DNA from: Chryseobacterium sp. S0630 | Lineage (GTDB): Bacteria > Bacteroidota > Bacteroidia > Flavobacteriales > Weeksellaceae | Assembly: GCF_024158915.1 (NCBI RefSeq) | Contig: NZ_JAMZGF010000025.1 | Coordinates: 1-64,000, forward strand | Direction: 5' to 3' | Length of the DNA: 64,000 nucleotides | In this document: positions 29,489 to 62,904 of the stretch, piece by piece | Layout of the letters: each line of letters begins with the position of its first letter | Position numbering within the stretch: position 1 is the first letter of the stretch | Notes under the pieces: generated by a model | What the model was told of the DNA's origin: nothing | Databases searched by the model: none | What the model saw: the letters and a program-made list of their open reading frames with translations, nothing else | Made by a program: the position numbers and the translations under genes

Positions 29489-29528
29489 AGAAGTTAAAAT
29501 CAATAATTAGTTACAGATATTTAAACCT

Positions 29529-29858: not shown

Positions 29859-29863
29859 CAAAA

Positions 29864-38179: not shown

Positions 38180-39643
38180 CTAAGAATAGAATTGAACAAA
38201 ATGGTGATACGCTGCTTCTACATTGTGATGATCAATTTCCCACAAAGCTTTTGCTACAGCGTCTTTCAAGCCTTCAATTTCTGTGAGATCTGTATCCCAG
38301 AAAGAAATTTCACTTAATACAAGTTCTGCTACTTTTTCATACTCATTGTTTAACCAGATTTCTTTGAATCGGTCAACAATCGTCTGCTCATCATTTAACG
38401 GAAGGGTTTTATCCTGAAAATTCCCATGATAGAATCTGATAAGAGCTGCTAAAGAGAAAGTTAAATTAAGCGGTAATTTTTGGTTAGTTTCCACATATTT
38501 CAATAAACTCGGCAGTACTCTTACTTTAAATTTAGACACAAAATATAAAGCGATACTTGCCAGATGATGTTTAATAAAAGGATTTCTAAATCTGTCGAAA
38601 ACTTCTTCTGCAAAATCTCTCAACTCATTTTCATCCAATCCTAAAGTTGGGTTGACTTCATTGAAAATGGTGTCTTTTAAAAACTTCCCGATGAACGGAT
38701 TATCAATGGATTCTTTTACCGTTTCTTTTCCTGATAAAATGGCTGGAGCCAGCATCAAAGTATGTCCACCATTCAGAATTCTTACTTTTCTGAGACGGTA
38801 CGGCTGAATATCATCTACCACCAGAATCTGCTCATTAATCTGGTCAAAAGGAATTCTTTCTTTTAAATTCTTAACATCCTGAATGACAAACAGTAAAAAT
38901 ACTTCAGAAACAACCATCATCCGATCTTCATAATCCAACTGCTCTTCATAGGTTTCTGCATCGTCTTTTGGATAACCGGGAACAATCCTGTCTACCAATG
39001 TATTATGAAAACAGTTAAATTGTTCAATCCATCGCACAAAACCTTCTTCTAAATTCCAGAGTTCAGCATATTGAAGGATGATATTTTTTAAAGCCAAAGC
39101 ATTATCTTCAATCAGTTCACAAGGAATGATTCTCACTCCTTTTTCCGGTGAACCATTGAAATATTTAAATCTTTCATACATTAAAACCGTCAGTTTTGCA
39201 GGAAAGTTTTTGTGTGGTCCTGCCTGATAGTCTTCGGTTTCATCATATGCAATCCCGGTTTCTGTGGTATTTGAAAAGATAAATTCAAGCTCTTCTTCCT
39301 TTGCTAAAGCGAGAAATTCGCCATATTGTGTATAAGGATTGATGGACTTCTGAATGGAAGAAATCACCTGTTTTTCATCAATAATTTCACCTTTTTTTAT
39401 TCCTCTCGTAAAAAGGGTGTACAGATTATCCTGCTCTTCAAGCTTGTGAACAGAACCTCCCGGTGTAGGCTGAACATTTACAATTCCTGCGTTGAAATCT
39501 GTCTTTTTATTTAACTGATCTATAATATAATCTGTAAATCCTCTCATGAAATTCCCACCTCCAAACTGTATTATTTTAATAGGAAGCTTTTCCTGAGAAC
39601 CATAGAATTCACGATTGAGTTTTTGTTTTATCTGATTTTCCAT
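38180..39643 (-). CDS. uxaB: Tagaturonate reductase (altronate oxidoreductase)
   Basis: This 487-residue enzyme starts at the ATG at 39643; the upstream in-frame extension runs through a repeat and is not credible. It reduces D-tagaturonate to D-altronate with NADH. The N-terminal Rossmann segment IKIIQFGGGNFMRGF is followed by the mannitol-dehydrogenase-type C-terminal domain with RIVPGYPKDDA and RKVRILNGGHTL, which contains the conserved catalytic region. The length matches E. coli UxaB. It directly precedes uxaA; a small GACGCAAAG-like repeat separates it from the transporter gene. Confidence 0.94.
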   Translation of the reverse strand: MENQIKQKLNREFYGSQEKLPIKIIQFGGGNFMRGFTDYIIDQLNKKTDFNAGIVNVQPTPGGSVHKLEEQDNLYTLFTRGIKKGEIIDEKQVISSIQKSINPYTQYGEFLALAKEEELEFIFSNTTETGIAYDETEDYQAGPHKNFPAKLTVLMYERFKYFNGSPEKGVRIIPCELIEDNALALKNIILQYAELWNLEEGFVRWIEQFNCFHNTLVDRIVPGYPKDDAETYEEQLDYEDRMMVVSEVFLLFVIQDVKNLKERIPFDQINEQILVVDDIQPYRLRKVRILNGGHTLMLAPAILSGKETVKESIDNPFIGKFLKDTIFNEVNPTLGLDENELRDFAEEVFDRFRNPFIKHHLASIALYFVSKFKVRVLPSLLKYVETNQKLPLNLTFSLAALIRFYHGNFQDKTLPLNDEQTIVDRFKEIWLNNEYEKVAELVLSEISFWDTDLTEIEGLKDAVAKALWEIDHHNVEAAYHHFVQFYS

Positions 39644-39659
39644 TTTTTCTAATCTTACT

Positions 39660-39745
39660 ATATTTTTGAGTTGTAACGCAATGTCTGCAAAGACCTGTAA
39701 AATTGCGCTTACTTTCGTTCGCAAAGACGTTTACTCAGCAAAGAA
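39660..39745. repeat. Small degenerate GCAAAGAC-type repeat
   Basis: Between uxaB and the transporter gene, TTGTAACGCAATGTCTGCAAAGAC and TTCGTTCGCAAAGACG resemble parts of the dispersed GACGCAAGG family. It is short and degenerate, seen by eye only. Confidence 0.35.
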
Positions 39746-39767: not shown

Positions 39768-41294
39768 TTATTTTATCACTTTATATTTCGGAACCAGTGT
39801 TTTCATCACACTCCATGCAATAAGGTAAGCGACTGCACACACAGAGAAAATGATCATGTATCCTTTATCAATTCCATCAGAAATAATAGCGCCCGATTTT
39901 TCCAGATCGTGAAGAAAATTCTCCGGTAAACGTTCATTGATGTATTGTGGATATTTCTCAAGCAAAGGCATTCCGTCAATAGTAGTCCAGGTTTTATGAG
40001 CATGATCGAATAACACTCCTGATGATTTATTGATTAAAAAAGAACCGATTCCGCCTGCCATTCCGCCAATTCCTGTAATAGTCGCAATCGCTTTTTTGGG
40101 AAACATATCGCCTACTGTGGAGAATATATTCGCTGACCAAGCCTGATGAGCTGCTCCCGCTACTCCAATGATTAATACCGGAATCCAATATGAAACAGAG
40201 CCTAAAGGTTGTGCTAAAAGAGCCAACAAAGGGAAAAAAGCAAAGATCAACATCGCTTTCATCCTTCCGGAATATGCATCCATTCCTTTCTTCTCCACGA
40301 AATACTTCGGAAGCCATCCTCCAATAATGGAAAATAATGTAATCATATAGAGAACAAATAACGGTAAGGCACTTTGTGTAGAATCCATTTTATAAACAGA
40401 ACTCAGATAAGCGGGTGTCCAGAACAGGAAAAACCACCAGATTCCGTCTGTCATAAACTTTCCGAAAGCAAAAGCCCAGGTCTGTCTGTAACTGAAACAT
40501 TCTTTGAAGGAAAATTTCTTTTCTGATCCTGCTGAACCTTCTCCAACCCAATCATCCTGATCCTGCTGAATATAAGTAAGCTCATGTTCATTGACTTTAT
40601 GATGTTCGTGAGGTTTTTTATAATAAAATACCCAAAGCCCCATCCACACAAAACCTAAAGCACCAATAATGATAAATGCCCATTCCCAACCCATCGATTT
40701 TGCAATAAAAGGAATGGTAACCGGTGCAGCCAAAGCTCCTACTGTTGCTCCGGCATTAAAAATACTTGTAGCCAGTGCTCTGTCTTTCTTTGGAAAATAT
40801 TCTGCAGTAGTCTTTATCGCTGCTGGAAAATTTCCTGCTTCCCCGACCGCCAAAACAAAACGGGCGAAAATAAACAAGGTAACACTTGTACTGATAATAG
40901 CGCCCACATTATCTACTCTTCCGATAATCTCTTTAGATTCCTGAAAACCTACCAGCCAGTTTCCCGTAAGAACTCCTGAAGTGGCAATTCCACAAAAAGC
41001 ATGAATAACAGCTCCTATAGACCAGATTCCTATAGCCCAGAGAAAACCTTTTTTGGTATCCATCCAGTCTACAAACTTTCCGGCAAAAAGCATACTTACA
41101 GCATAGAAAATAGAAAATAATGCCGTGATATTTCCATAGTCATTATTATTCCAGTGAAACTCCGGAGCGATGAAATCTTTCCAGGTAAGTGACAGCACCT
41201 GCCGATCCATATAATTGATGGTCGTTGCAATAAAAAGAAGCACGCAGATCGTCCATCTGAACTGAGTCGGTTTCGGGGATATTTCTTTATTCAT
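39768..41294 (-). CDS. MFS hexuronate transporter (ExuT-like)
   Basis: This 508-residue major facilitator protein has about twelve hydrophobic segments. The first contains INYMDRQVLSLT, a motif typical of the anion:cation symporter (ExuT/GudP) subfamily, and the 2-3 loop contains GKFVDWMDTKKGF. A larger than usual hydrophilic stretch lies near residues 130-155 and a central loop at about 245-275. It sits inside the galacturonate operon and very likely imports galacturonate or unsaturated galacturonate released by the periplasmic enzymes. Inner membrane. Confidence 0.88.
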   Translation of the reverse strand: MNKEISPKPTQFRWTICVLLFIATTINYMDRQVLSLTWKDFIAPEFHWNNNDYGNITALFSIFYAVSMLFAGKFVDWMDTKKGFLWAIGIWSIGAVIHAFCGIATSGVLTGNWLVGFQESKEIIGRVDNVGAIISTSVTLFIFARFVLAVGEAGNFPAAIKTTAEYFPKKDRALATSIFNAGATVGALAAPVTIPFIAKSMGWEWAFIIIGALGFVWMGLWVFYYKKPHEHHKVNEHELTYIQQDQDDWVGEGSAGSEKKFSFKECFSYRQTWAFAFGKFMTDGIWWFFLFWTPAYLSSVYKMDSTQSALPLFVLYMITLFSIIGGWLPKYFVEKKGMDAYSGRMKAMLIFAFFPLLALLAQPLGSVSYWIPVLIIGVAGAAHQAWSANIFSTVGDMFPKKAIATITGIGGMAGGIGSFLINKSSGVLFDHAHKTWTTIDGMPLLEKYPQYINERLPENFLHDLEKSGAIISDGIDKGYMIIFSVCAVAYLIAWSVMKTLVPKYKVIK

Positions 41295-41510: not shown

Positions 41511-42179
41511 TTATCTTAGTTCTTTAATGATCTGTATAGAATGAGCTACAGCTTCTGTGATTTTTACATAGTCGTATTCCCCGGTTTCATTTTTCACAAA
41601 CAGCTGCGAACCTAGTCCTACGCAGTAAGCCCCTGCAGAAATCCATTCACTGATGTTTTCTTTTGTTGGAATGACTCCGCCTGTAGGCATTATGTTTGAC
41701 CATGGCATCGGGCCTTTCACAGCTTTGATAAATTCCGGACCGCCTACTTGCGTTGCCGGAAAGATCTTCACAATTTCTGCTCCTAATTCTTCAGCATAAG
41801 AAATTTCAGAAACAGAGCCACAGCCGGGCATCCACGCAACTTTTCTTCGGTTGCAGACCTTGGCCACTTCAGGATTTAAAACAGGAGCTACAATAAAGTT
41901 CGCCCCATTCTGAATATATAAAGAAGCAGTTGCCGGATCAAGGATGGATCCAATTCCCAGGATCATTTCAGGGATTTCATTGGCAACGTATTTCACCAGT
42001 TCAGCAAAAACCTCGTGAGCAAAATCACCTCTGTTGGTAAATTCAAAAACACGGGCACCACCATCGAAACAAGCTTTTACAATTTTCTTGCAAACATCAA
42101 TATCTGCATAATAAAATACAGGCACAATCCCTGTTTGCTTTGCCATTAAGGCTACTTCTATCCTATTAAATCTTGCCAT
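41511..42179 (-). CDS. eda: KDPG / 4-hydroxy-2-oxoglutarate aldolase
   Basis: This 222-residue class I aldolase splits 2-keto-3-deoxy-6-phosphogluconate into pyruvate and glyceraldehyde-3-phosphate. Visible family features are the FEFTNRGD segment with the conserved Glu-like position, FIVAPVLNPEVAKVC, and IKFFPA-like IVKIFPATQVGGPEFIKAVKGP (named by its parts KIFPATQVGG and EFIKAVKGP) with the phosphate-binding PTGGV. The usual Schiff-base Lys segment is present in that same region. It begins two bases after kdgK, so translation is probably coupled. The length matches bacterial Eda. Confidence 0.92.
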   Translation of the reverse strand: MARFNRIEVALMAKQTGIVPVFYYADIDVCKKIVKACFDGGARVFEFTNRGDFAHEVFAELVKYVANEIPEMILGIGSILDPATASLYIQNGANFIVAPVLNPEVAKVCNRRKVAWMPGCGSVSEISYAEELGAEIVKIFPATQVGGPEFIKAVKGPMPWSNIMPTGGVIPTKENISEWISAGAYCVGLGSQLFVKNETGEYDYVKITEAVAHSIQIIKELR

Positions 42180-42181
42180 AA

Positions 42182-43189
42182 TTATCTTTTTATTCTTCCT
42201 CCTGAATTTCCTTTCATTACTTCCAGAATATCCTCTACACTTGCATAGTTGATATCTCCGGGAATGGTATGTTTGATTGCACAGGCTGCATTGGCAAAAC
42301 TCAGCGCTTTTTTAGGATCAAAATGCTTTAAACCATAGATCAACCCTGCAGCAAAAGCATCTCCCGTTCCTATTCTGTCAACAACAGGATTAATTTCCAG
42401 AAGTTCCGTTTCAAAATAGGCTTCATCTACCCAAGCTCTTCCCTGTGTTTGCTGCGTACTTGCTGTAACCCCAATTCTTATTTTATCAAAAATCCTTTGA
42501 ACAGAAGGAATTTGTTGTTTTAATTCTTTACAGGCTTCAATGAAACCTTCTTTATCGGAAGAAAACTGAGTTCCGAGAATTTCATTGATTTCGTTTACTC
42601 CTCCGATAAAAATGGTGGAATAAGAAACCAGTTCTTTCAGTACTTCATGCCCTTTTTTTCCATATTTCCAGAGATTGGAACGGTAAGCAGGATCTGTGGA
42701 AATCTCAATTCCTTTATTCTGTGCAGTTTTCAGACCTTCTTTCAATGCTTCATAAGCAGATTCTGAAATACCAGGACTGATGCCTGTCCAGTGAAAATAT
42801 TCACAATCTTCAAGCGCCTTTTCCCAGTTGATATGTTCAGGGTTGATATTGGCAAAAGAACCGTTCAGTCTGTTGTAAGCAATTCTGCTGGCACGGACAG
42901 ATGAACCAACTTCAAGAAAATACAGTCCTAAAGGATGCTCATTTTTATGAATGAAATTGGTATCAATTCCAAAACTTTGGATGAAAGAAACAGCAGATTC
43001 TCCTACAAAATCATCTGAAACACAGCTGATGTGTTTTACTTCACAACCCATTGTTGCCAATGAAGAAGCAACGTTTAGTTCTGTTCCTCCAAAAAAGAAT
43101 TCCATTTCGTGGCTTTGCTTCATCATTCTGTTTCCGGGTGGGGAAAGCCTCATGATCACTTCACCGAATGTGACTATTTTGTTACTCAT
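42182..43189 (-). CDS. kdgK: 2-keto-3-deoxygluconate kinase (PfkB family)
   Basis: This 335-residue ribokinase-family enzyme phosphorylates KDG to KDPG. The N-terminal GEVIMRLSPPGNRM and FGGTELNVASSLATMG match sugar kinases, and the catalytic-base motif is DRIGTGDAFAAGLIYG near residue 290. Position immediately before eda and after the KDG-producing genes supports the substrate. It opens a kdgK-eda pair, about 256 bp from uxaC across a repeat-containing gap, which may hold an internal promoter. Confidence 0.92.
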   Translation of the reverse strand: MSNKIVTFGEVIMRLSPPGNRMMKQSHEMEFFFGGTELNVASSLATMGCEVKHISCVSDDFVGESAVSFIQSFGIDTNFIHKNEHPLGLYFLEVGSSVRASRIAYNRLNGSFANINPEHINWEKALEDCEYFHWTGISPGISESAYEALKEGLKTAQNKGIEISTDPAYRSNLWKYGKKGHEVLKELVSYSTIFIGGVNEINEILGTQFSSDKEGFIEACKELKQQIPSVQRIFDKIRIGVTASTQQTQGRAWVDEAYFETELLEINPVVDRIGTGDAFAAGLIYGLKHFDPKKALSFANAACAIKHTIPGDINYASVEDILEVMKGNSGGRIKR

Positions 43190-43445: not shown

Positions 43446-44843
43446 CTAAAAATCAAAATAATTTTTTGCGTTATGGTAGCAGATATCTGAAATGGTTTTC
43501 CCGATCAGTTCTATATCATTCGGCAGTTCGCCGTTTTTCATTTCTTCCCCGAAAAGATTACACAACACTCTTCTGAAATACTCATGTCTCGGGTAAGAAA
43601 GGAAACTTCTGGAATCCGTCAGCATTCCCACAAAACAGCTTATTAATCCCATATTGGAAAGGGCATTCATCTGTTTGATCATTCCGTCTTTCTGATCAAG
43701 AAACCACCATCCGGAGCCAAACTGTACTTTACCTTTGATGCTTCCATCATTGAAATTCCCGATCATTGTTGCGAAAATTTCGTTATCCGCAGGATTTAAA
43801 TTGTAAAGAATGGTTTTTGTAAGTTTATCTTTTCCGTCTAAAGTGTTCAAAAATCTGGAAAGCGTTTCTGCCTGTACAAAGTCTCCAATAGAATCCCAGC
43901 CGGTATCCGGTCCTAAAATTCTGTGCATTCTTTCATTATTATTTCTCAAAGCTCCTAAATGGAACTGCTGAACCCATCCGTATTGATGATAAGCTTCCCC
44001 TAAGAATAATAAAATGGCTGTTTTGAATTGATTCACCTGCTTTTCAGCAATCACTTTTCCGGCTAATTTATCATTGAAAATAGCATTCACTTCCGCTTCT
44101 GTAGCTTCTTCAAAAGAAATATTATTTAAGCCGTGATCACACAGTCTGCATCCATTTTCGTGGAAATATTCGATCCTTTTAAGCAAAGCATCACATAAAG
44201 TCTGGTAAGAATTAATTTCAATCCCTGCTGATGTTCCCAGTTTTGCAATGTAATCTGCGAAGTTGTGGTTTTCAATCAGAATCGCCTTATCCGGACGGAA
44301 TGCAGTGCTTACTTTGATACTGAAATCACTTTTCGCCAGATCCTGATGGTAATTCAAGGTGTCTGTAGGGTCTTCTGTAGTACATAGAGATTCCACATTC
44401 ATCATTTTCAAAAGACCTCTGGTAGATTTTTCAGGGGTTTGAAGCTGAGTGGTGATGTTTTCATAGATTTCCGATGCATTGTCTCCATTCAACAGTTCAT
44501 CAATTCCGAAATATCTTTTCAATTCCAGATGAGTCCAGTGATACAAAGGGTTTCTCAAAGTATACGGAACTGTTTTTGCCCATGCTTCGAATTTTTCTTT
44601 GTCTGAAGCATCTCCCGTGATGAATTTTTCATTGACTCCCATCGTTCTCATAGCTCTCCATTTGTAGTGGTCACCAGCAATCCAGACTTTGGAAATATTG
44701 TCAAAAACAGTGTCTTCTGCAATATCTTTAGGAATCAAATGATTATGATAATCGATGATCGGCTGTTTTTCTGCGAATCTGAAGTAAAGTTCTTCAGCGT
44801 ATTTATTTTGTAATAAGAATTGGTCTGTTATAAAAGGTTTCAT
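43446..44843 (-). CDS. uxaC: Glucuronate/galacturonate isomerase
   Basis: This 465-residue amidohydrolase-like isomerase converts D-galacturonate to D-tagaturonate (and glucuronate to fructuronate). It has the metal-binding start IIDYHNHLIPKDIA, KVWIAGDHYKWRAMR and the terminal FFRRVLCNLFGEEMKNGELP segment typical of UxaC. Its length is close to the E. coli enzyme. It lies 18 bp after kduD and is the first step of the saturated galacturonate route that continues with uxaB and uxaA downstream. Confidence 0.95.
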   Translation of the reverse strand: MKPFITDQFLLQNKYAEELYFRFAEKQPIIDYHNHLIPKDIAEDTVFDNISKVWIAGDHYKWRAMRTMGVNEKFITGDASDKEKFEAWAKTVPYTLRNPLYHWTHLELKRYFGIDELLNGDNASEIYENITTQLQTPEKSTRGLLKMMNVESLCTTEDPTDTLNYHQDLAKSDFSIKVSTAFRPDKAILIENHNFADYIAKLGTSAGIEINSYQTLCDALLKRIEYFHENGCRLCDHGLNNISFEEATEAEVNAIFNDKLAGKVIAEKQVNQFKTAILLFLGEAYHQYGWVQQFHLGALRNNNERMHRILGPDTGWDSIGDFVQAETLSRFLNTLDGKDKLTKTILYNLNPADNEIFATMIGNFNDGSIKGKVQFGSGWWFLDQKDGMIKQMNALSNMGLISCFVGMLTDSRSFLSYPRHEYFRRVLCNLFGEEMKNGELPNDIELIGKTISDICYHNAKNYFDF

Positions 44844-44861: not shown

Positions 44862-45644
44862 TTATTCATTAGCAGGTTTTCCAATAGTCGCCAGGATTCC
44901 TCCATCTACGTAAATAATCTGTCCGTTGATGAATCTGCTTGCATCAGAAGCAAGGAAAATAGCGGTTCCTGCAAGGTCTTCCGGGTTTCCCCATCTCCCT
45001 TCCGGCGTTCTGCTGATGATAAAATCATTGAAAGGATTTCCATCCACACGGATGGGTTCTGTCTGGGAGGTTGCAAAATATCCGGGACCGATTCCGTTCA
45101 CCTGAATATTGTGTTTTGCCCATTCTGTTGCCAGATTTTTGGTAAGCATTTTAAGGCCGCCTTTTGCTGAAGCATAGGCTACTACATTGTCACGTCCCAG
45201 CTCACTCATCATCGAGCAGATGTTGATAATTTTCCCCGATTTCCTTTTAATCATATATTTCCCGATTAATTTCGACATGATAAAAGGTCCGGTAAGATCT
45301 ACATCAATTACTTTTCTAAAGTCATCCACTTCCATATCAATAGCCGGAATACGTTTGATGATTCCCGCATTATTGACAAGGATGTCTATTTTTCCATGAG
45401 TGGCTTCCATTAAAGCTACTTTTTGGGCAGCTTCCAGCTCATCCGTCACATCAAAAATATAGCCTGTTGCTTTATACCCTTTTTCATGGTAATAATTCAA
45501 CGCTTCTTCCAGCTTTGATGGCGTTGTACTGGTAATGGCCAGCTCAGCACCAGCTGCAGCAAGTCCTTCTGCCATTGCCATTCCTAATCCGTGAGTACCT
45601 CCGGTAACCACAGCTACCTTACCGGATAAATCAAATAAATTCAT
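44862..45644 (-). CDS. kduD: 2-deoxy-D-gluconate 3-dehydrogenase type SDR
   Basis: This 260-residue classical short-chain dehydrogenase has cofactor motif TGGTHGLGMAMAEGL, then NNAGI, the catalytic Ser in NICSMMSELG and the pair YASAK. In pectin pathways KduD reduces 2,5-diketo-3-deoxygluconate to KDG. Adjacency to kduI (eight bases apart) makes this the likely role here, though gluconate 5-dehydrogenases look very similar. No membrane or signal segment, so cytoplasmic. Confidence 0.92.
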   Translation of the reverse strand: MNLFDLSGKVAVVTGGTHGLGMAMAEGLAAAGAELAITSTTPSKLEEALNYYHEKGYKATGYIFDVTDELEAAQKVALMEATHGKIDILVNNAGIIKRIPAIDMEVDDFRKVIDVDLTGPFIMSKLIGKYMIKRKSGKIINICSMMSELGRDNVVAYASAKGGLKMLTKNLATEWAKHNIQVNGIGPGYFATSQTEPIRVDGNPFNDFIISRTPEGRWGNPEDLAGTAIFLASDASRFINGQIIYVDGGILATIGKPANE

Positions 45645-45652: not shown

Positions 45653-46489
45653 TTACTTTAGTTCGTTTGTTTTAATACCGTCCATATCACCATAGTCCAT
45701 ATTTTCTCCGGCCATACCCCAGATAAAAGTATAATTGGCAGTTCCTACGCCAGAGTGGATGGACCATTCCGGAGACAACACTGCCTGCCTGTTCTTCATA
45801 AACAGGTGACGGGTTTCATGGGGCTGGCCCATAAAATGACTTACTGTCTGCCCTTCTTCCAGATCAAAATAGAAATAGGCTTCCATTCTTCTGGTGTGGG
45901 TATGCGCAGGCATTGTGTTCCAGACATTTCCGGGATGCAGCTCAGTCATACCCATTTGGAGCTGGCAGGTTTCTACCACAGAATTAACAATCAGTTTGTT
46001 GATAGTACGTTTATTCGCATATTTCTCGTCGCCCAGTTCCACAATTTCAGCTTCGTTTTTGGTGATTTTCTTTGTGGGACATGCATGATGCGCCGGAGCT
46101 GAATTGATGTAGAAATAAGGCTGTTCTTTACCTGTCTTTTCAAAGATCACTTCCTGAGATCCTTTTCCGATGTATAAAGCTTCTTTATTTCCAAGCTCAT
46201 ATACATTTCCGTCAACAGTTACTTTTCCTGCTCCTCCTACATTGATGATTCCCAGCTCTCTTCTGTCAAGAAAATTTTCAGCTTTCAGATCATCAGTGGG
46301 CTCCAGTTTCAACGCTTTGGAGGAAGGCATTACTCCTCCTACAATAAGCCTGTCATACATAGAATACACCAGTTTTATCTTATCCTCATTGAATAAATCA
46401 TCGATTAGAAACTCCCTCCTGAGATCTTCTGTGGTATATTTTTTCACATCTTCAGGATGATGGGCGTAACGAAATTCTGATTGTGCCAT
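45653..46489 (-). CDS. kduI: 5-dehydro-4-deoxy-D-glucuronate isomerase
   Basis: This 278-residue cupin-type isomerase, exactly the length of the E. coli protein, converts the ring-opened form of unsaturated galacturonate (DKI) to diketodeoxygluconate. The zinc-binding motif PAHTHTRRMEAYFYF and the earlier GGVMPSS and ELGIINVGG segments are characteristic. It is the first gene of the minus-strand arm and starts 55 bp from an AATCGATT palindrome that overlaps the predicted transcription start, so repression by the LacI-type protein is likely. Confidence 0.96.
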   Translation of the reverse strand: MAQSEFRYAHHPEDVKKYTTEDLRREFLIDDLFNEDKIKLVYSMYDRLIVGGVMPSSKALKLEPTDDLKAENFLDRRELGIINVGGAGKVTVDGNVYELGNKEALYIGKGSQEVIFEKTGKEQPYFYINSAPAHHACPTKKITKNEAEIVELGDEKYANKRTINKLIVNSVVETCQLQMGMTELHPGNVWNTMPAHTHTRRMEAYFYFDLEEGQTVSHFMGQPHETRHLFMKNRQAVLSPEWSIHSGVGTANYTFIWGMAGENMDYGDMDGIKTNELK

Positions 46490-46543: not shown

Positions 46544-46557
46544 TGTAATCGATTGCA
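46544..46557. promoter_or_regulatory. LacI-type operator at the kduI promoter
   Basis: TGTAATCGATTGCA is a 14-bp palindrome with one mismatched pair, and a central CG as in LacI/GalR operators. On the minus strand the -7-like element TAATTTTA is the complement of 46558-46565, so transcription should start inside the palindrome. The same core recurs at 47231-47242 in front of susC. Confidence 0.7.
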
Positions 46558-46565
46558 TAAAATTA

Positions 46566-47170
46566 CACTAAAATTGCAGAAATACTTGTGGGGTTAAATA
46601 TATAATTATTCTTTAAGTAGTTAACAAAAAATTAATTTTATTTTAAAATAAGCTGATTATCAAATAAATAAAATTAAAAATAGATTTAAAAAGAGTTGGA
46701 AAAGAGAAAAAAAATATAGAATAAATTTCCCAAAATAAGAAACTAACCGGACTTAAAATATAAAATCATGCCAAAATAACACAGAAAACAAGCAATGAAA
46801 TATTGATTAAAATATCATCAAATTAATACACATATGATATATACTCGTAAATATTAATAAAAAGTACAAAATACAGAAGTACTGATAATTTCAAAAAGAT
46901 GACAAAAATCAGAAAATGATTAAAATTTTTCTTCCCAGGCATCAATTTCGGGATTTTTTATATCCGAAAACAGACATAGTTTTAATCAAAATTTAAGTTT
47001 TATAAACATTAAACACTTCCTTAACACATTTTTATTGTTAAGATTTAGAACAAAATGAAAACAATTATATACAATTGATTAACAATAAATTAAATTCATA
47101 AAACAAACATTTGTAAGGCTAAACACATTGTATTAAACACATAAATTAATGAAAAAATAACATTTTTTTC
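46566..47170. other. Long AT-rich spacer between the two pectin arms
   Basis: About 600 bp of very AT-rich DNA with no supported ORF, RNA or repeat. Long A tracts suggest intrinsically curved DNA. It separates the divergent promoters of the kduI and susC arms and could hold additional activator sites that are not recognisable by eye. Confidence 0.5.
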
Positions 47171-47200
47171 TTTGCGTATTGAAAAATAATATTAGTTTAG
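47171..47200 (+). promoter_or_regulatory. Probable promoter of the susC arm
   Basis: TTTG (47171-47174) and TAGTTTAG (47193-47200) are 18 bp apart, approximating the Bacteroidota -33/-7 promoter, with one mismatch in the -7 element. Transcription would begin near 47207, giving a leader of about 160 bases that contains the operator at 47231. Confidence 0.45.
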
Positions 47201-47230
47201 GAGCCAGATTAATTTATTATAAATAATTAC

Positions 47231-47242
47231 GCAATCGATTGC
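47231..47242. promoter_or_regulatory. LacI-type operator before susC
   Basis: GCAATCGATTGC is a perfect 12-bp palindrome with the same core as the copy at 46544-46557. It lies about 25 bases downstream of the predicted susC transcription start, a position where a bound repressor would block elongation. A half-site-like CGATTG recurs at about 47326. Confidence 0.75.
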
Positions 47243-47366: not shown

Positions 47367-50300
47367 ATGGATAAAAGAGTACAATCAATAAAGTGGTTAT
47401 ATTTAACTGTTTTTCTGCTTCCTGTCCTTTCCATGGCTCAGGAAAAAGAAACGAAAAAAGATAAAGAAACCAAACTGGATGATGTGGTTTTGGTAGGCTA
47501 TACAAAAGTTTCCAAAAAAGACGTTACCAACGCTGTTTCTTCTGTGAAAGGCGAAGCTCTTAAAGATATGCCTTCTACCAATGCTGCTGAAGCTATCCAG
47601 GGAAGACTGGCCGGTGTACAGGTTTCTCTGAGTGAAGGATCTCCCGGAGCAGATGTGGACATTGTAATCCGCGGTGGAAACTCCATTACCCAAAGCAATG
47701 CCCCACTCTATATTGTAGATGGTGTGCAGATGGATAATGCCCTGACCATCTTATCTCCCAAAGAAATAGAATCAATTGAAGTATTAAAAGATGCCTCTTC
47801 CACTTCTATTTTCGGATCAAGAGGAGCTAACGGTGTAGTTCTGATCACTACAAAAGGCGGCCGCAAAAAAGGAAAAACAACAATTAACTATAATGGTTTT
47901 GTAGGGGTAAGAAGCATTCAGAATAAGATCAGTGTACTTGATCCTTACCAGTATGTTCTTTATCAGTATGAACAATATTATAAGAATGGAGATGCAAAAG
48001 ATATTGAAACTTTTAACACACGCTACGGAACTTTTGATCAGCTTGACAAATATAAGTCTGTAAAAAATGTAAACTGGCAGGATAAGCTTTTCGGAAGAGA
48101 AGCATTCAATTTTACGCACAATGTATCTTTATCCGGAGGATCTGAAAACTCTGCATTTTCATTGACACTTAATAATGTGGAGGAAGACGGAGTGATGATT
48201 GGATCCGGATTCAAACGTAATATGGCCAACTTCAGATATGATTATGATATTTCAAAAAAGCTGAGTATTGGTCTGAACGCCCGCTACAGCCGTCAGATGA
48301 TCTACGGAGCGGGAACTTCTGCCTCAGGTTCACAAACCACCAACCGGTTGAGAAATGCCATCAGATATCAGCCTTTTGAAGGTGGTTCTACGGTAGATGT
48401 TGATGATTTTGATCCTTTATTTGCAGATCAGACGAATCTTGTCAATCCTGTTTTACTGGCCAATGATGAAGTAAAGGAAAGCGGAAGAAATGACTTATTA
48501 CTGAACGGAACAATTGAATATAAGATCAGTAAAGATTTTACGTTCCGAAGTGTGATCGGTTATGTACAGAGAGATCAGATCGTCAATCAGTTTTCAGGTC
48601 CGGTTACCAGCCTTGCCAGACAGAACAATGATCAGCCAGTGGTGTTTATGAGTAATTCTCAAACCAGAAGAATTACCAATACCAACACATTGAATTATAG
48701 AAGAACATTCGGTAATCATAAGTTTGATCTTTTAGCAGGTCAGGAAACCGTGAGAACCGATGGTGAATCTACCTCCATCAATATCAAATGGTTCCCTAAA
48801 TCTTCTTCGGCACAGGAAGCCTTTGCTAATTCACAGCTGGCATCACCACCTTCAGGAATGGTTCAGGATGCTCCTAAAACGGCAAGAGAGGTAGACCGTT
48901 TAGCATCTTTCTTTGGAAGGGTAAATTATATCTACAACAACAAATATATTGCAACAGTTTCCATGAGAGCCGATGGTTCCAGTGTTTTCAAACCTGGTCC
49001 CAATCAGTGGGGATACTTTCCTGCAGCTTCTTTAGCCTGGAAAATCAAGGAAGAAAATTTCTTGAAGCAGAGCAATTTTGTGAATGAACTGAAACTTCGT
49101 TTAGGATATGGAAAATCAGGAAATAACAGAATCGGAGCTTTTTTATATGATACCTTCTTTACATCATCGTCAGATTACGGCTACGCTTTCGGAACCAGTG
49201 TTACCCCAGGGGCTACCACCGGAAATATTATGGCCAACCCTAATGTAAAATGGGAAACAGCCACTTCATACAATGCCGGAATTGATTTTGGGTTGTTTAA
49301 AGGAAGGCTTTATGGAACTCTGGATGTTTATAAAACAGATACCAAAGACCTTTTATTATTAGCCAAAATACCACAGACTTCCGGATACGAGTATCAATAC
49401 CAAAACTCAGGAAGCAGCGAAAATAAAGGGATAGAACTATCAATGGGAAGTACCATCATCAGCAAAGAAAACTTTTCGTGGAAAATTGATGCCAATATTT
49501 CTTCCAACAGAAATACCATCAAAAGCTTGGGAAGCAATGCCTCTGCCAGTGCCAATTCTTACTACTACCCTTCCGGATGGCAGAATAACCTGTTTGATTT
49601 CCTTGTACAGGTAGGTAAACCGGTAGGTACTTATTGGGGATATGTTACAGCAGGAAGATATGAAGTAAGTGATTTTAATTATGACGCAGCTACCCAACTT
49701 TATACACTAAAGGCAGGAATTGCAAGTTCTGCTGCTGTTGCTAACGGTGCAAAAGCCGTACAACCAGGAGACCTTAAACTTCAGGACCTGAATGGAGACG
49801 GAGTAATTGATAACAAAGATATGACTGATCTTGGGAGTGCACAGCCTAAATTCTACGGAGGTTTTACCCAAACATTCCGCTATAAGAACTGGGATATGAG
49901 TTTGCTTTTCAATTTCTCCATAGGAAATAAAGTGTACAATGCCAACAAATTAGAATACACCACTCAATATCTTTATAAGGATAATAATATGCTTGCTGAA
50001 GTAGCAGACCGCTGGAGATGGTTTGATAATGCCGGAAATAAAGTAACAGATCCTACTGCTCTTGCCGCTCTTAATGCCAATACAACGATGTGGACTCCTC
50101 CCGCAGGAGCTTATTTCCTTCATTCTTATGCTATTGAAGACGGTTCTTTCTTGAGACTGAATAACCTTACCATTGGATATAGTCTTCCAAAAGGATCTCT
50201 TGATGCTATTGGAGTGAAAAACCTGAGGCTGTATGCTACCGTTAATAATTTATTTACGATTACGGGTTATTCAGGATTTGATCCGGAAGCCAATACAAGA

Positions 50301-50384
50301 AGAAATCCATTAACTCCGGGAGTAGATTATTCTGCTTATCCAAGAAGCCGATTTATTTTATCAGGAGTAGATATTACTTTCTAA
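47367..50384 (+). CDS. susC: SusC/RagA family TonB-linked outer membrane transporter
   Basis: This 1005-residue outer-membrane transporter has a signal peptide (to MAQ near residue 25). A short region containing the TonB-box-like DDVVLVGYTKVSKKDVT is followed by the plug with IQGRLAGVQVSLSEGSPGADVDIVIRGG (read as parts IQGRLAGVQV and DIVIRGG) and ITQSNAPLYIVDG. A large barrel ends in a terminal aromatic strand. The carboxypeptidase-like N-terminal domain common in SusC proteins is absent. Paired with susD and followed by pectin enzymes, it should import pectic oligosaccharides. First gene of the plus-strand arm. Confidence 0.95.
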   Translation: MDKRVQSIKWLYLTVFLLPVLSMAQEKETKKDKETKLDDVVLVGYTKVSKKDVTNAVSSVKGEALKDMPSTNAAEAIQGRLAGVQVSLSEGSPGADVDIVIRGGNSITQSNAPLYIVDGVQMDNALTILSPKEIESIEVLKDASSTSIFGSRGANGVVLITTKGGRKKGKTTINYNGFVGVRSIQNKISVLDPYQYVLYQYEQYYKNGDAKDIETFNTRYGTFDQLDKYKSVKNVNWQDKLFGREAFNFTHNVSLSGGSENSAFSLTLNNVEEDGVMIGSGFKRNMANFRYDYDISKKLSIGLNARYSRQMIYGAGTSASGSQTTNRLRNAIRYQPFEGGSTVDVDDFDPLFADQTNLVNPVLLANDEVKESGRNDLLLNGTIEYKISKDFTFRSVIGYVQRDQIVNQFSGPVTSLARQNNDQPVVFMSNSQTRRITNTNTLNYRRTFGNHKFDLLAGQETVRTDGESTSINIKWFPKSSSAQEAFANSQLASPPSGMVQDAPKTAREVDRLASFFGRVNYIYNNKYIATVSMRADGSSVFKPGPNQWGYFPAASLAWKIKEENFLKQSNFVNELKLRLGYGKSGNNRIGAFLYDTFFTSSSDYGYAFGTSVTPGATTGNIMANPNVKWETATSYNAGIDFGLFKGRLYGTLDVYKTDTKDLLLLAKIPQTSGYEYQYQNSGSSENKGIELSMGSTIISKENFSWKIDANISSNRNTIKSLGSNASASANSYYYPSGWQNNLFDFLVQVGKPVGTYWGYVTAGRYEVSDFNYDAATQLYTLKAGIASSAAVANGAKAVQPGDLKLQDLNGDGVIDNKDMTDLGSAQPKFYGGFTQTFRYKNWDMSLLFNFSIGNKVYNANKLEYTTQYLYKDNNMLAEVADRWRWFDNAGNKVTDPTALAALNANTTMWTPPAGAYFLHSYAIEDGSFLRLNNLTIGYSLPKGSLDAIGVKNLRLYATVNNLFTITGYSGFDPEANTRRNPLTPGVDYSAYPRSRFILSGVDITF

Positions 50385-50394: not shown

Positions 50395-52230
50395 ATGAAC
50401 AAAAATAAATTTTCAAGTTTTTTCTTATCTCTTGCCTGCGTGGTTACTCTTAATTCCTGCAGTGATTATTTAGAGGTAGAAAATCTTTCCAATACTGCTG
50501 AGAAGCAACAATTTGACTCAGCACCAGACACCTTTGCTGCACTTGTAGGGGTTTATAACAGTGCTATGGGTGACAATACGTATGGACAGAGAATGAATCT
50601 CATCCTTTCCCAGTCCGGGGACGATCTCAGAACCTCCGGAGATTATAATGCCAACGACAGAAGAGGAATAAGCTGTTTCGGAGCAGTTCCCACCAATACG
50701 GAATTATTAAGACCTTTCCTGGATACTTACACAGGCATCGAAAGAGCGAATCTTGTAATCAAAAACATTCCTCTTTCTCCAGTTTATCAAACCGGATCTG
50801 CAGCTGATAAAAAACTGATGGACCGCTATCTGGGCGAAGCATTAACACTAAGAGCATTGTTTTATTATGATCTTATTAAAAACTGGGGTGATGTCCCTTT
50901 TCAGGATGTCCCTTCTGCAGATCTGCCATCCGTTTATATTCCGAAAACAGACCGTGATATCATCTATGAAAAACTTCTTGATGATCTGGCAAAAGCATCT
51001 GCTCTGGTGCCATGGAAATCTGAAGGAGGAACTACTGCACAAAGACTTTCCAAAGCAGCAGTAAAAGGATTAAGAGCCAGAATAGCCTTGGCAAGAGCCG
51101 GATATTCTTTGAGAAGAAGTCCGCAACTCATGACGCAAGGAACAAATCCTCAGAAATATTATCAGATTGCGTATGATGAATGCAAAGATATCATCACTTC
51201 CGGGCAGCACAAGCTGAACCCTAGCTATGAAGGGCTTTTCAGATCTTTGCATACCAACACTCCGGATACAACGAGTGAAATTATTTTTGCTGTCGGAGCT
51301 TTTGGCGGAAACTCTAGAACAGATTCAAAAATCGGATATTATAATGGGTTAAGGCATGATGATTCTGACTGGAAATCAGCCGGAGGAATCAGTGCTATTC
51401 CTACCTATTTCTATGAGTTCAGTAAATATGATTTGAGAAGAGATGTTAATATTGCCATTTTCAGGGTGAGCACATCAAAACAGGAGGATCTTCAGACTTC
51501 CATCAACTGGAATGACGGAAAATTCAGAAAGTCGTGGACGAGCATTACGGGAACTTCCCAGAACTTAGGAATCGACTGGCCGTTGCTACGATATGCCGAT
51601 ATTTTATTAATGTTTGCTGAAGCAGACAATGAACTTCACAGTGCTCCTTCTCAGGAAGCCATTGATGCTGTAATGGCTGTAAGACAAAGAGCTTATACAG
51701 GTAATTTGGGTCAGATAGGAACCATTCCTACTTCCAAGAATGACTTCTTTAAATATATTGTTCAGGAAAGATTATTGGAATTCGGAGGTGAAGGATTGAG
51801 AAAATATGATCTGATCCGCTGGAACCTTCTGGAAACAAAGATCAATGAAACCCGACAGAAACTTACAGATTTCATGAACGGCACAGGAGCTTATGCGAAT
51901 GTTCCCGAGTATATTTTTTACAAAAAACCGGCTTCCACTGTTGCCAATTATGTTCCCACAAAAACAGCACAGCAAAACGTTCTGGATATGGACATTTATG
52001 TGAACGGAATCAACAAGGCTGATGTTTTCTACAATCCAAATCAAAGTGTGGCTACTCCTACAGGATACACAAAAGTGAACTGGAGACTGGCTATGACACA
52101 GCCTTACATCAGTGGAGATCCGGTGAAAAGTTATGCGTATTATTTCCAGCCTAACAAAAAGGAACTTCTTCCTATTGCGCTGGATGTGATCAATTCAAAT
52201 TATAACCTTACCCAGGATTACGGATACTAG
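50395..52230 (+). CDS. susD: SusD/RagB family nutrient-binding lipoprotein
   Basis: This 611-residue surface lipoprotein has lipobox LNSC (Cys near residue 22), then the SusD fold rich in TPR-like helices. Conserved segments include LTLRALFYYDLIKNWGDVPF (as ALTLRALFYYDLI), LRYADILLMFAEADNE, and ERLLEFGGEGLRKYDLIRW (as LLEFGGEGLRKYDL). It caps the SusC pore and captures oligosaccharide. It begins 10 bp after susC, so the pair is cotranscribed. Substrate preference for pectic oligosaccharides is inferred from the downstream enzymes. Confidence 0.95.
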   Translation: MNKNKFSSFFLSLACVVTLNSCSDYLEVENLSNTAEKQQFDSAPDTFAALVGVYNSAMGDNTYGQRMNLILSQSGDDLRTSGDYNANDRRGISCFGAVPTNTELLRPFLDTYTGIERANLVIKNIPLSPVYQTGSAADKKLMDRYLGEALTLRALFYYDLIKNWGDVPFQDVPSADLPSVYIPKTDRDIIYEKLLDDLAKASALVPWKSEGGTTAQRLSKAAVKGLRARIALARAGYSLRRSPQLMTQGTNPQKYYQIAYDECKDIITSGQHKLNPSYEGLFRSLHTNTPDTTSEIIFAVGAFGGNSRTDSKIGYYNGLRHDDSDWKSAGGISAIPTYFYEFSKYDLRRDVNIAIFRVSTSKQEDLQTSINWNDGKFRKSWTSITGTSQNLGIDWPLLRYADILLMFAEADNELHSAPSQEAIDAVMAVRQRAYTGNLGQIGTIPTSKNDFFKYIVQERLLEFGGEGLRKYDLIRWNLLETKINETRQKLTDFMNGTGAYANVPEYIFYKKPASTVANYVPTKTAQQNVLDMDIYVNGINKADVFYNPNQSVATPTGYTKVNWRLAMTQPYISGDPVKSYAYYFQPNKKELLPIALDVINSNYNLTQDYGY

Positions 52231-52305: not shown

Positions 52306-53328
52306 ATGAAATTTTCCATCTTTTTTAAAAACACGGCTCTGTTTTCTGTTGCTCTGATGGCTTTAGTCAGTCTTCTTTCTTTCAAAATCAAGGATAAAAC
52401 CATCGTGGTTTCGAAAGATGGGAAAGGTAATTTCACAACCGTTCAGCAGGCAATTAACGCTATTGAAAACAATTCTTCAACAAGAACAAAAGTTTTTATT
52501 AAAAACGGAACTTATAAAGAAAAGATTACCATTCAGGAAACAAAAGGAGTCATACTTCTGGTAGGTGAAAATCCAGAAAAAACAATCATTACTTACAATG
52601 ATTATGCCTCAAAAAAGAATGCTGAAGGAAAAGAGATCGGGACGACAGGTTCATCCACAATATTTATTTATTCAAATGATTTTACAGCAAAAAATATTTC
52701 ATTTGAAAACAGTTCCGGAAGAGTCGGACAGGCAGTTGCTGTATTAACTTCCGGTGACAGAATCGCCTTTGAAAACTGCAGATTTTTAGGAAATCAGGAT
52801 ACTTTATATTTAAAAGGAGTTCAGGATCTCGAGGACAAGACAAAACCATCAAGAAACTACTTCAAAAACTGTTATATCGAAGGAACAACGGATTATATTT
52901 TTGGGGCTGGAACAGCTGTTTTTGAAAATTGTATTATTTACTCCAAAGAAACGGCAAGCTATGTTACAGCCGCTTCTACTCCACAGGGAAATGAATTTGG
53001 GTTCGTTTTTATCAATTCAAAGATTATTGGAAATGCAAAAGACCATTCCGTCTATCTGGGAAGACCATGGAGACCTTTTGCAAGAACCGTTTATATCGAC
53101 TGTGAGCTTAACTCAACGATAAAGCCTGAAGGATGGCACAACTGGAACAAAACGGAAGCAGAAAAGACCACATTGTACGCAGAAAGCAACTCAAAAGGAG
53201 CCGGAGCCAATATGACTCAAAGAGTTCCTTGGTCGCATCAATTAAATAAAGAAGAAAGAAAAAAATACACTCCGGAAAATATTCTTAAAGGAAATGATCA
53301 GTGGAATATAAAAAAGAGCTTACAATAA
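52306..53328 (+). CDS. Pectin methylesterase (CE8), first copy
   Basis: This 340-residue right-handed beta-helix esterase removes methyl groups from homogalacturonan, preparing it for lyase and polygalacturonase attack. The catalytic set is visible: GNQDTLY (Asp), DYIFGAGTAVFENC (Asp) and YLGRPWRPFARTVY (Arg). The hydrophobic N-terminus acts as a signal or anchor without an obvious cleavage site. The gene lies 75 bp after susD. A second CE8 with the same motifs but low overall identity ends the arm at 62905-63867. Confidence 0.93.
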   Translation: MKFSIFFKNTALFSVALMALVSLLSFKIKDKTIVVSKDGKGNFTTVQQAINAIENNSSTRTKVFIKNGTYKEKITIQETKGVILLVGENPEKTIITYNDYASKKNAEGKEIGTTGSSTIFIYSNDFTAKNISFENSSGRVGQAVAVLTSGDRIAFENCRFLGNQDTLYLKGVQDLEDKTKPSRNYFKNCYIEGTTDYIFGAGTAVFENCIIYSKETASYVTAASTPQGNEFGFVFINSKIIGNAKDHSVYLGRPWRPFARTVYIDCELNSTIKPEGWHNWNKTEAEKTTLYAESNSKGAGANMTQRVPWSHQLNKEERKKYTPENILKGNDQWNIKKSLQ

Positions 53329-53349
53329 TTCATACAAGCATCTTCAATC

Positions 53350-54765
53350 ATGACAAAAAACTTCATTAAACTATTCACCACGGGACTTTTATGCAGTATT
53401 TCTACGCTGGTTGATGCGCAGGAAATATTGAGCTTTCCCGGAGCTGAAGGTTTTGGAAGATTCACAAAAGGCGGACGTGGCGGAAAGGTCTATTTCGTCA
53501 CCCATCTGAAAGACGATAACTCTGCAGGAAGTTTAAGATTCGCTTTGAATCAAAAAGGTCCGAGATATATTGTATTTAGAACCAGTGGAACTATTTACCT
53601 GCAGTCTCCTTTGAAAATGAAAGAGGGCGATGTCACCATTGCCGGACAAACCGCTCCCGGAGACGGAATTACGATTGCCAATTATGAAACATTTGTAGCT
53701 GCAGATAATGTTATCATCCGTTTCCTAAGATTCAGAATGGGTGATCAGAAAAAATTTGAGGGCGATGCTTTGGGAGCAAGATTTATCAAAAATCTGATGG
53801 TAGATCATTGTTCTATGAGCTGGTCTACAGACGAAACAGTCTCGATTTACGCCAATGAAAAAACAACTCTTCAATGGTGTCTCATTGCTGAAAGTCTCAG
53901 AAATTCTGTTCATCAGAAAGGCGCACATGGCTATGGTGGAATTGCAGGAGGTAAATTCGCATCCTTTCATCATAATATCTACGCGCATCATGACAGCAGA
54001 AATCCAAGATTAGGCGAATATGCAGGAAGTAAATTTGCGCTGACAGACCTTACTGATTTCAGAAATAATCTGATCTACAACTGGGGACACAACAGTATTT
54101 ATGGAGGTGAAGGAATGAACGTGAATATCGTTAATAATTATTACAAACCCGGACCGGCAACACTTACAAGACAAAGAATTGTCGCCATCGATAAAAATGA
54201 AAACCCGAAAACCGAAGTCTATAATATCTGGGGGAAATACTACATCAACGGAAATGTGATGGAAGGAAGTCCGGAAGTTACCAAAGATAACTGGACAGAA
54301 GGTGTTTTTAGTCAGATGAAACCATCCTATAACTTAACAGAAAAGGATAAAAATTCCATTAAAATCAATCAACCTCATAATATTGAGAATAACATTAAAA
54401 CCCATTCTGCAGACGAAGCTTACAGGAAAGTGCTCAAATTCAGCGGAGCAAGCCTGGTAAGAGATGCTGTTGATCTTCATGTTTTAAAAGACATTGAAAC
54501 CGGAAGCTTTACTTACACAGGCTCAAAAGGAAGTAAAAACGGAATCATTGATTCTCAAAATGACACAGGCGGATTTCCTCATTTAAAACAGGTAAAGCCT
54601 CTCCCCGATTCCGACAACGACGGAATGCCGGATGAATGGGAAATCAAACATCATTTGAACCCAAAATCAGCCAATGCCAACGGCAGAGATCTTGATAAAA
54701 ACTATGACAATATAGAAGTGTATATAAATGATATTGTCCGTACAATAACCGATGACCAAAACTAA
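53350..54765 (+). CDS. Pectate lyase-type polysaccharide lyase (PL1-like)
   Basis: This 471-residue secreted beta-helix protein has a signal peptide (to VDAQ near residue 24) and begins its mature part with FPGAEGFGRFTKGGRGGKVYFVT (parts FPGAEGFGRF and GGRGGKVYFVT), typical of PL1 lyases. Parallel-helix turns include VDHCSMSWSTDE and NIYAHHDSRNPRLGE. A C-terminal PDSDNDGMPDEWE segment is a calcium-binding thrombospondin-type-3-like motif. It cleaves polygalacturonate by beta-elimination, producing the unsaturated ends consumed by GH105 and KduI. Confidence 0.9.
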   Translation: MTKNFIKLFTTGLLCSISTLVDAQEILSFPGAEGFGRFTKGGRGGKVYFVTHLKDDNSAGSLRFALNQKGPRYIVFRTSGTIYLQSPLKMKEGDVTIAGQTAPGDGITIANYETFVAADNVIIRFLRFRMGDQKKFEGDALGARFIKNLMVDHCSMSWSTDETVSIYANEKTTLQWCLIAESLRNSVHQKGAHGYGGIAGGKFASFHHNIYAHHDSRNPRLGEYAGSKFALTDLTDFRNNLIYNWGHNSIYGGEGMNVNIVNNYYKPGPATLTRQRIVAIDKNENPKTEVYNIWGKYYINGNVMEGSPEVTKDNWTEGVFSQMKPSYNLTEKDKNSIKINQPHNIENNIKTHSADEAYRKVLKFSGASLVRDAVDLHVLKDIETGSFTYTGSKGSKNGIIDSQNDTGGFPHLKQVKPLPDSDNDGMPDEWEIKHHLNPKSANANGRDLDKNYDNIEVYINDIVRTITDDQN

Positions 54766-54814
54766 TAACCATGAAAACTCATCAACAGAAATCGGTAACC
54801 CAACAGGAAAAAGT

Positions 54815-55810: not shown

Positions 55811-55821
55811 AGTTTAACATC

Positions 55822-57075: not shown

Positions 57076-57140
57076 AAAAAGATTGAGAAATCCTCATCCT
57101 TGACAAGGATTGGTAAGTCAGGAAAAGTATAATTGATTGT

Positions 57141-58784: not shown

Positions 58785-58789
58785 AATGT

Positions 58790-58900
58790 AAAACGCTCGC
58801 AGATTATGCAGATAACGCAGATTTTAATGATAAAATAATACACAATCATCTGCAAAATCAGCACAATCTACGAGAGAGTAAAAAGAAAGTTATGTTGGAA
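58790..58900 (+). repeat. 111-bp direct repeat, left copy
   Basis: This copy starts AAAACGCTCGCAGATTATGC and ends GAAAGTTATGTTGGAA, and matches 59110-59220 with only a few differences. Internally it is a palindrome-like unit (CGCAGATT early, AATCTACGAGAG late) of the same type as the remnant at 43364. It is inserted between the GH43 and CE12 genes. Confidence 0.85.
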
Positions 58901-59109
58901 AACGCTAAGACGTGATGAAATATCAAAATGTAAATAATTATAAGGACGCAAAGATTTTATCTACGATAAAATTGAATACCGCTCAACTTGCCGAAAATCT
59001 TATATTGAGCGAAGTCGAAGTGTTCTTACACATTAAAAACAAAATAAAGAATATAAAACCTTGCACCTTTGCGATTATTCAACAAAAATGTCATACAGAA
59101 AAAATAAAT
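58901..59109. repeat. GACGCAAAG-type repeat between the two direct repeats
   Basis: This 209-bp segment carries GACGCAAAGATTTTATCTAC (from 58946), which recurs at about 49-69 in the first repeat of the window, and ends with CCTTGCACCTTTGCG. It is a second member of the dispersed family. An apparent 108-residue frame across it and the right direct repeat is not credible as a gene. Confidence 0.65.
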
Positions 59110-59220
59110 AAAACGCTCGCAGATTATGCAGATAACGCAGATTTTAATGATAAATTGATACACAATCATCTGCAAAATCAGTTCAATCTGCGAGAGAGTA
59201 AAAAGAAAGTTATGTTGGAA
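59110..59220 (+). repeat. 111-bp direct repeat, right copy
   Basis: Second copy of the unit at 58790-58900, exactly 320 bp downstream, ending 17 bp before the CE12 start codon. The pair brackets the GACGCAAAG element. This suggests either insertion of that element with duplication or recombination between repeats. Confidence 0.85.
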
Positions 59221-59237
59221 ATCCAACAAAAAAAGTA

Positions 59238-60083: not shown

Positions 60084-60084
60084 C

Positions 60085-61752: not shown

Positions 61753-61754
61753 TT

Positions 61755-61958: not shown

Positions 61959-61979
61959 TCAATGTAAAAATCTGACAAA

Positions 61980-62888: not shown

Positions 62889-62904
62889 TTTTTAACCGGA
62901 TCTT

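Follow-up and report, generated by a model that had tools for sequence, protein, structure and literature searches.

Putative shared LacI-type operators in the kduI-susC divergent region of a Chryseobacterium pectin locus

Two near-identical palindromes lie in the divergent region between kduI and susC in Chryseobacterium sp. S0630, and we consider it likely that the LacI/GalR-family protein encoded at 34865 uses both as operators and would thereby repress both arms of the locus until a cytoplasmic uronate intermediate releases it. The identity of the sites, their conservation, their rarity and their association with a LacI clade all come from comparison, by which the proposal of the initial annotation, that shared LacI-type operators join intracellular and extracellular pectin genes, appears well supported. 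Throughout, the window refers to the whole stretch of DNA analyzed (64,000 nucleotides), the coordinates of which are used below.

The divergent region and its two palindromes

The locus consists of a left arm on the minus strand, a right arm on the plus strand, and a regulator gene beyond the far end of the left arm:

34865-35893, plus strand: LacI/GalR-family regulator, 342 aa (PF00356, PF00532, PF13377), the presumed binder of both operators
36561-38174, minus strand: uxaA, altronate dehydratase family (PF20629, PF04295, PF08666)
38180-39724, minus strand: uxaB, tagaturonate reductase (NF002969 above cut-off)
39768-41294, minus strand: MFS transporter, probable hexuronate uptake (PF07690; TIGR00893 below cut-off)
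41511-42179, minus strand: KDPG/KHG aldolase (PF01081; NF005499 above cut-off)
42182-43189, minus strand: PfkB-family sugar kinase, probable 2-keto-3-deoxygluconate kinase (PF00294; KDG-kinase models below cut-off)
43446-44843, minus strand: uxaC, glucuronate isomerase family (PF02614, NF002794)
44862-45644, minus strand: SDR-family dehydrogenase in the kduD position (NF005488, gluconate 5-dehydrogenase, above cut-off; TIGR01832, kduD, below cut-off)
45653-46489, minus strand: kduI, 5-dehydro-4-deoxy-D-glucuronate isomerase (NF002091 above cut-off)
47367-50384, plus strand: susC, TonB-dependent receptor (PF07715, PF00593)
50395-52230, plus strand: susD (PF07980, PF14322)
52306-63867, plus strand: pectin genes, comprising a pectinesterase, a weakly PelZ-like protein (pectate lyase PelZ match of 124.8 bits, below the cut-off of 840), DUF4861, GH88 and GH43 genes, followed by a GDSL esterase, GH28, an alpha/beta hydrolase and a second pectinesterase

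The start codons of kduI (46489, minus strand) and susC (47367, plus strand) bound a divergent gap of 877 bp, which holds the two palindromes and two conserved promoter-like blocks:

46545-46556, no strand assigned: operator 1, GTAATCGATTGC, 55 bp upstream of the kduI start codon
46560-46573, minus strand: conserved block over the presumed kduI -7 element, GTGTAATTT (conservation of 0.95 in a 14-column window, 21 genomes)
47159-47200, plus strand: conserved block, putative susC promoter, TTTG followed by TAGTTTAG, ending 30 bp before operator 2
47231-47242, no strand assigned: operator 2, GCAATCGATTGC, 124 bp upstream of the susC start codon

The near-identical palindromes about 690 bp apart described by the initial annotation were confirmed, with GTAATCGATTGC and GCAATCGATTGC differing at one of 12 positions and lying 686 bp apart (start to start). 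LacI-family operators are symmetric with a central CG, and GCAATCGATTGC, a perfect 12-bp palindrome, has this form; site counts also follow the LacI clade, as described below.

The genome-wide motif search suggested at the outset was carried out on the whole 5.38 Mb assembly (139 contigs, estimated 99.99% complete), where GYAATCGATTRC occurs in two places only, both at the kduI-susC divergon, and the same pattern read backwards has no copies. The looser RYAATCGATTRY added three places genome-wide, all three inside ORFs, and the concern that the motif might be common at unrelated genes is thus not borne out in the Chryseobacterium sp. S0630 genome. Allowing three mismatches in the window returned 22 matches against 26.0 expected from shuffles; this loose search shows no excess, and weight is therefore given to exact sites alone. 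A matrix scan of the window scored the two sites at 30.4 and 25.7 bits, values inflated by the matrix having been built partly from both operators, with the next best match at 8.2 and the best score in 20 Markov-shuffled windows at 16.2. In the same scan, no weaker operator stood out before kdgK, the MFS gene or lacI, and the best extra matches (39024 and 39825) were within the range of the shuffled windows.

Both 12-mers are invariant in all 21 congeners with kduI (own genome counted), at spacings of 663-691 bp, while the spacer between them has a mean pairwise identity of 0.59 (minimum 0.50) across the 21 genomes. When the 21 gaps were aligned, the longest invariant runs were AAAATAATATTAGTTTAG, presumably the susC promoter, and the operators plus their edges, TACGCAATCGATTGCAC and GTAATCGATTGCAT. 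Conservation across 47159-47200 was 0.97, 0.85 and 1.0 in three adjoining windows. The promoter roles given to this block and to 46560-46573, together with both start sites, are predictions from promoter-like blocks; the Bacteroidota -7 consensus is TAnnTTTG. Operator 1 starts just downstream of a -7-like TAATTT (minus strand) and so would cover the kduI start. Further upstream of the kduI promoter, at 46595-46640, we noted AT-rich conserved blocks in which TAAATATA and TTAACAA are invariant in 21 genomes. Repeats flanking the operators (TTACGC...GCGTAA at susC and GTGTAAT...ATTACAC at kduI) were weighed as additional half-sites or RNA hairpins and set aside; the kduI repeat overlaps the presumed promoter and the right arm of the susC repeat drifts.

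Under the preferred reading, one LacI-type dimer would occupy each operator when pectin-derived sugar is absent, with operator 1, over the presumed kduI start, blocking the kduI promoter, and operator 2, ~30 bp downstream of the presumed susC start, blocking the susC promoter. Pectin breakdown would then raise the level of a uronate intermediate, releasing the LacI-type protein so that both arms are expressed, and no contact between the two operators would be needed. The positions of the sites favor repression as the mode of control. The effector would most likely be 2-keto-3-deoxygluconate, because the left arm's two branches, from galacturonate and from unsaturated uronates, converge on it.

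Predicted link of the sites to the LacI-type regulator

The LacI-type gene reported at 34865 is real and spans 34865-35893, where it is preceded by an alcohol dehydrogenase gene and faces uxaA. Its product combines a LacI helix-turn-helix (PF00356, 50.4 bits) with a periplasmic-binding-protein-like core (PF00532, 134.2 bits), both above cut-off. None of 19 NCBIfam families of named LacI equivalogs (RbsR, CytR, PurR, CcpA, GntR and others) matched above cut-off, the best being RbsR (NF047341) at 207.8 bits versus a cut-off of 382. The genome encodes two LacI-family genes, this one and another on contig C11.

The initial annotation also held that no hybrid two-component (HTCS), AraC-type or ECF-sigma regulator is present. 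This stands for the ORFs covered by the Pfam search (37 of the 44 with a length of 150 aa or more), none of which has such a DNA-binding domain, and for a search area bounded by the contig end at 65306. The pectin locus is adjoined by a signaling cluster (22606-33111) with histidine kinases carrying CHASE3, GAF or PAS and receiver domains, along with CheB and CheR genes, in which no DNA-binding output domain was found; since the histidine kinases at 24399-33111 have receiver domains and no HTH output, they are not HTCS regulators.

A lacI ortholog (at least 84% identity) is present in 21 of 36 genus genomes (own included), and the same 21 have kduI, although in one (G003) the kduI match is split in two pieces. 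Because the operator pair follows kduI trivially, we counted sites elsewhere in these genomes. Beyond the pair, the 21 ortholog genomes hold 63 sites (mean 3.0) versus six (mean 0.4) in the other 15 (Mann-Whitney p = 4e-4, with genomes treated as independent though related), whereas the backwards-pattern control gave means of 0.71 and 1.27, respectively. A total of 36 of the 63 extra sites are intergenic, 34 of them at most 300 bp upstream of an ORF start, compared to none of the six. The remaining 27 of the 63 lie in ORFs, so the excess is partly shared coding sequence; among them is a recurrent one in a TonB receptor adjoining yceG, which does not count as regulatory. The same 12-mer occurs 264-300 bases from the start of a large ORF in seven loci (L113, L118, L124, L125, L126, L045 and L225); in the one copy scanned (L113), the ORF is the TonB receptor next to yceG, and this is probably a coding coincidence.

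The association extends across the 148 genomes sampled from the order. Genomes with a LacI of at least 54% identity (n = 20, including our own and four congeners) have a mean of 5.6 sites, or 6.1 in the 15 outside the genus, compared to 0.8 in those with LacI matches of at most 43% only (n = 10) and 0.3 in those with no LacI match at E 1e-60 (n = 118). The exception is G153, with a 73% LacI ortholog and a single site. In family f3, all nine genomes with a LacI of at least 54% identity have a site 124-261 bp upstream of lacI itself, which we regard as the strongest independent sign that the LacI protein would bind this motif. Likewise, outside Chryseobacterium a site lies in the 600 bp upstream of 10 of 14 lacI genes whose products share at least 55% identity, including those of Flavobacterium, Moheibacter and Chishuiella; two of these 14 genomes overlap the f3 nine, and one of the four without a site has almost no upstream sequence. 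Within the genus, unlike in family f3, we found no GYAATCGATTRC indicative of autoregulation in the 600 bp upstream of the 21 congeneric lacI orthologs (for L025 and L027 the upstream sequence covered is shorter than this).

These data also bear on whether another regulator, either the C11 LacI or an unseen one, binds the sites, with the gene at 34865 being a mere neighbor. Such a regulator has a candidate in the second LacI-family gene of the genome. Yet three congeners (G006, G017 and G022) with a C11-like LacI (37%) and no 34865 ortholog have zero, one and zero sites, the single one being inside an ORF. Site counts track the clade of at least 54% identity and not remoter LacI genes, and in family f3 the sites lie upstream of that clade's own lacI genes. 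We regard a different regulator as very unlikely, and the predicted link of the sites to the 34865 protein as well supported by independent comparative evidence.

Looping and the mid-spacer element

It had been proposed that the LacI-type protein bridges the two operators, forming a loop of ~690 bp that couples both arms. Two features of the region agree with this. Spacing is steady (659-691 bp over 22 loci, CV 0.012) despite the divergence of the spacer (mean identity 0.59), although the three other gaps of the same cluster with which spacer length was compared are poor controls with differing content. There is also a third conserved element near the spacer midpoint in 20 of 21 congeners:

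46900-46911, no strand assigned: third conserved element, TGACAAAAATCA, roughly halfway between the operators, with a TGA-N6-TCA layout

Against looping, the 34865 protein is too short for the LacI tetramerization helix, which lies at residues ~340-357 of LacI and is absent from CcpA. Residue 316 of 342 in the 34865 protein aligns with residue 306 of 360 in LacI, leaving 26 residues versus 54, and the protein matches CcpA nearly to its end; all 21 congeneric orthologs are likewise 342 aa with alike C-termini. The C-terminal tetramerization helix of lac-type looping is thus lacking in this protein. Nor was a clear helical phase seen in the spacings; at 10.5 bp, R was 0.46 for the 21 related genomes and 0.28 for 22 loci (21 named plus our own) but only 0.16 for the 14 distinct spacings, which are scattered around the helix. 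Outside Chryseobacterium, the operator pair was found in one kduI-susC gap only, that of Epilithonimonas (659 bp apart; 1 of 58 kduI loci), which says little, since most of the 58 loci have no match to the window's SusC next to kduI. Given the short protein, and with no clear helical phase in the spacings, looping is left unsupported, and we judge it unlikely.

In 20 of 21 congeners the mid-spacer element reads exactly TGAYAAAAATCA and lies 352-357 bp from operator 1, and the 21st has TGATAAAAGTCA; in a set of named loci that overlaps these congeners, TGAYAAAAATCA lies 341-357 bp from operator 1 in 18 of 21. Genome-wide, its 14 copies (eight in ORFs and six intergenic) versus eight of the backwards control reveal no clear theme and no clear enrichment. 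The TGA-N6-TCA layout of TGACAAAAATCA is that of Crp/Fnr-type sites. A three-part complex for repression, like the gal repressosome of E. coli, could be imagined here, in which non-tetramerizing LacI-type dimers ~685 bp apart are joined by a bending or bridging protein at TGAYAAAAATCA that folds the spacer. If this were true, the pectin importer and the uronate pathway would switch together, but we consider such a complex very unlikely.

Alternatively, a further regulator (e.g., a Crp-like one at the mid-spacer element) could set expression, with the LacI-type protein binding both sites but activating one promoter or only tuning one arm. In favor of this, operator 2, ~30 bp into the presumed susC transcript, is in a weaker position for a repressor, the TGA-N6-TCA element is conserved, and a global sugar regulator of Crp-like type has been predicted in Bacteroides (available text of PMC3878776). 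On the other hand, TGAYAAAAATCA is not clearly enriched over its control, and the element is ~300 bp from the presumed starts, a long distance for a Crp-type activator. Overall, we find this division of labor distinctly unlikely, and repression of both arms by the 34865 protein remains our preferred reading.

Distribution, related systems and significance

The closest named matches to kduI are from Chryseobacterium, at up to 95% identity. Among 80 named kduI loci, GYAATCGATTRC lies in the 300 bp upstream of kduI in 53 and is absent there from 27, with the backwards pattern absent from all 80; the site is present in 21 of 22 loci labeled Chryseobacterium and 32 of 58 others, starting 25-34 bp before the kduI start codon in 20 of these 32. 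In two loci (L193 and L205), a SusC-like gene elsewhere in the locus has a site a few hundred bases away; a third (L201) has a SusC-like gene beside kduI with no exact site. From the distribution of the pair over the 80 loci, the site at kduI seems to be the older of the two and that at susC a lineage feature. Second copies of kduI (75-76% identity) were noted at G014:C28:33376-34209 and G033:C20:29130-29963, with such a relative also in L153, and no exact site was listed on the G014 C28 and G033 C20 contigs or in L153.

A KdgR-type regulon has operators at kduI and KDG-pathway genes, and the presence of a site ahead of kduI in 53 of the 80 loci accords with this; the left arm in Chryseobacterium sp. 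S0630 has a site at its first gene only. The intergenic extra sites of congeners, for which one or two representatives of each neighboring gene were scanned, precede genes for GH28, two pectate lyase types, RhaT, xylose isomerase and xylulokinase. Others have no clear pectin link and lie by a DUF4440 gene, uvrB or PNGase F, PEP carboxylase and a Sde182-like protein. Neither xylose isomerase (TIGR02630) nor Pectate_lyase_4 had a match in the Chryseobacterium sp. S0630 genome, which fits with this genome having two sites only. A site upstream of xylose isomerase and/or xylulokinase was seen in L091 and L097 (scanned) and in L095, L103, L114 and L115 (by ORF length), and pectin and xylose use may be under one common regulator in congeners.

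Two other recurrent site positions were observed. In eight loci (L089, L096, L100, L102, L119, L123, L221 and L228), a site lies 31-105 bp upstream of a 147-aa ORF, the only scanned copy of which (L100) is DUF4440 with a 348-aa GntR-family gene adjoining. In L098 and L117, the site falls 30-39 bases inside the called start of a 392-393 aa ORF, possibly since the start is wrong; the one scanned (L098) is DUF4861, a domain also found in the window's own gene at 54752-55810.

LacI-family control of uronate genes has parallels in other bacteria. In Bacillus subtilis, KdgR and ExuR are LacI-family repressors of 2-keto-3-deoxygluconate and galacturonate genes, in a member of the Firmicutes with no SusCD system. 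Closer to our case, the Bacteroides LacI regulators KdgR (BT0487), UxaR (BT0824), UxuR and UxmR are predicted for uronate catabolism (PMC3878776, PMC4052901) and, as far as the published descriptions available allow, are alike in family, in pathway and in belonging to Bacteroidota. In those same sources, the KdgR regulon is among those with few extracellular or periplasmic genes (Ravcheev 2013, PMC3878776; 2014, PMC4052901), and rhamnogalacturonan loci in Bacteroides are placed under hybrid two-component regulators (PMC3878776), whereas in Chryseobacterium the SusCD pectin operon itself has a LacI-type site. Two Bacteroidia MAGs (L203 and L206) have LacI genes of 38-39% identity beside kduI and share GCAATCGATTGC, which we note as a lead only.

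Joint control of a sugar pathway and a SusCD operon has been predicted for B. thetaiotaomicron ManR and AraR (available text of PMC3878776), which resemble our case as cytoplasmic monosaccharide regulators over both; they differ in belonging to the GntR and NrtR families and in acting on mannosides and arabinan, not pectin. The pectin PUL of Gramella flava, as given in the available part of PMC5306329, contains kduI, kduD, uxaABC, kdgK, eda, susCD and a gene labeled exuR, and is thus similar in joining pectin genes with a hexuronate regulator label, but its susCD was not significantly induced by pectin in that account, the available part of which gives no analysis of operators or a regulon. 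In the portions of the open-access literature available to us, we found no report of a 34865-type regulator and its motif in Chryseobacterium or Flavobacterium, and the accessible text of PMC3870299, PMC12125979 and PMC5698469 holds nothing on such operators in Flavobacteriales.

Taken together, the best reading of the Chryseobacterium case is a KdgR-like LacI repressor, for which uronate control is already predicted in Bacteroides. One switch probably controls the genes for both pectin uptake and pectin-sugar breakdown, an ordinary kind of gene control, and a SusCD importer appears to be placed under an intracellular sugar-acid sensor, in contrast to Bacteroides PULs, which typically rely on hybrid two-component systems. 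With a predicted regulon of two sites in one divergon, this would be a simple system for how one repressor balances import against breakdown, and it offers a combination of operator, regulator and targets that can be tested for pectin use in Chryseobacterium and in other, related Flavobacteriales.
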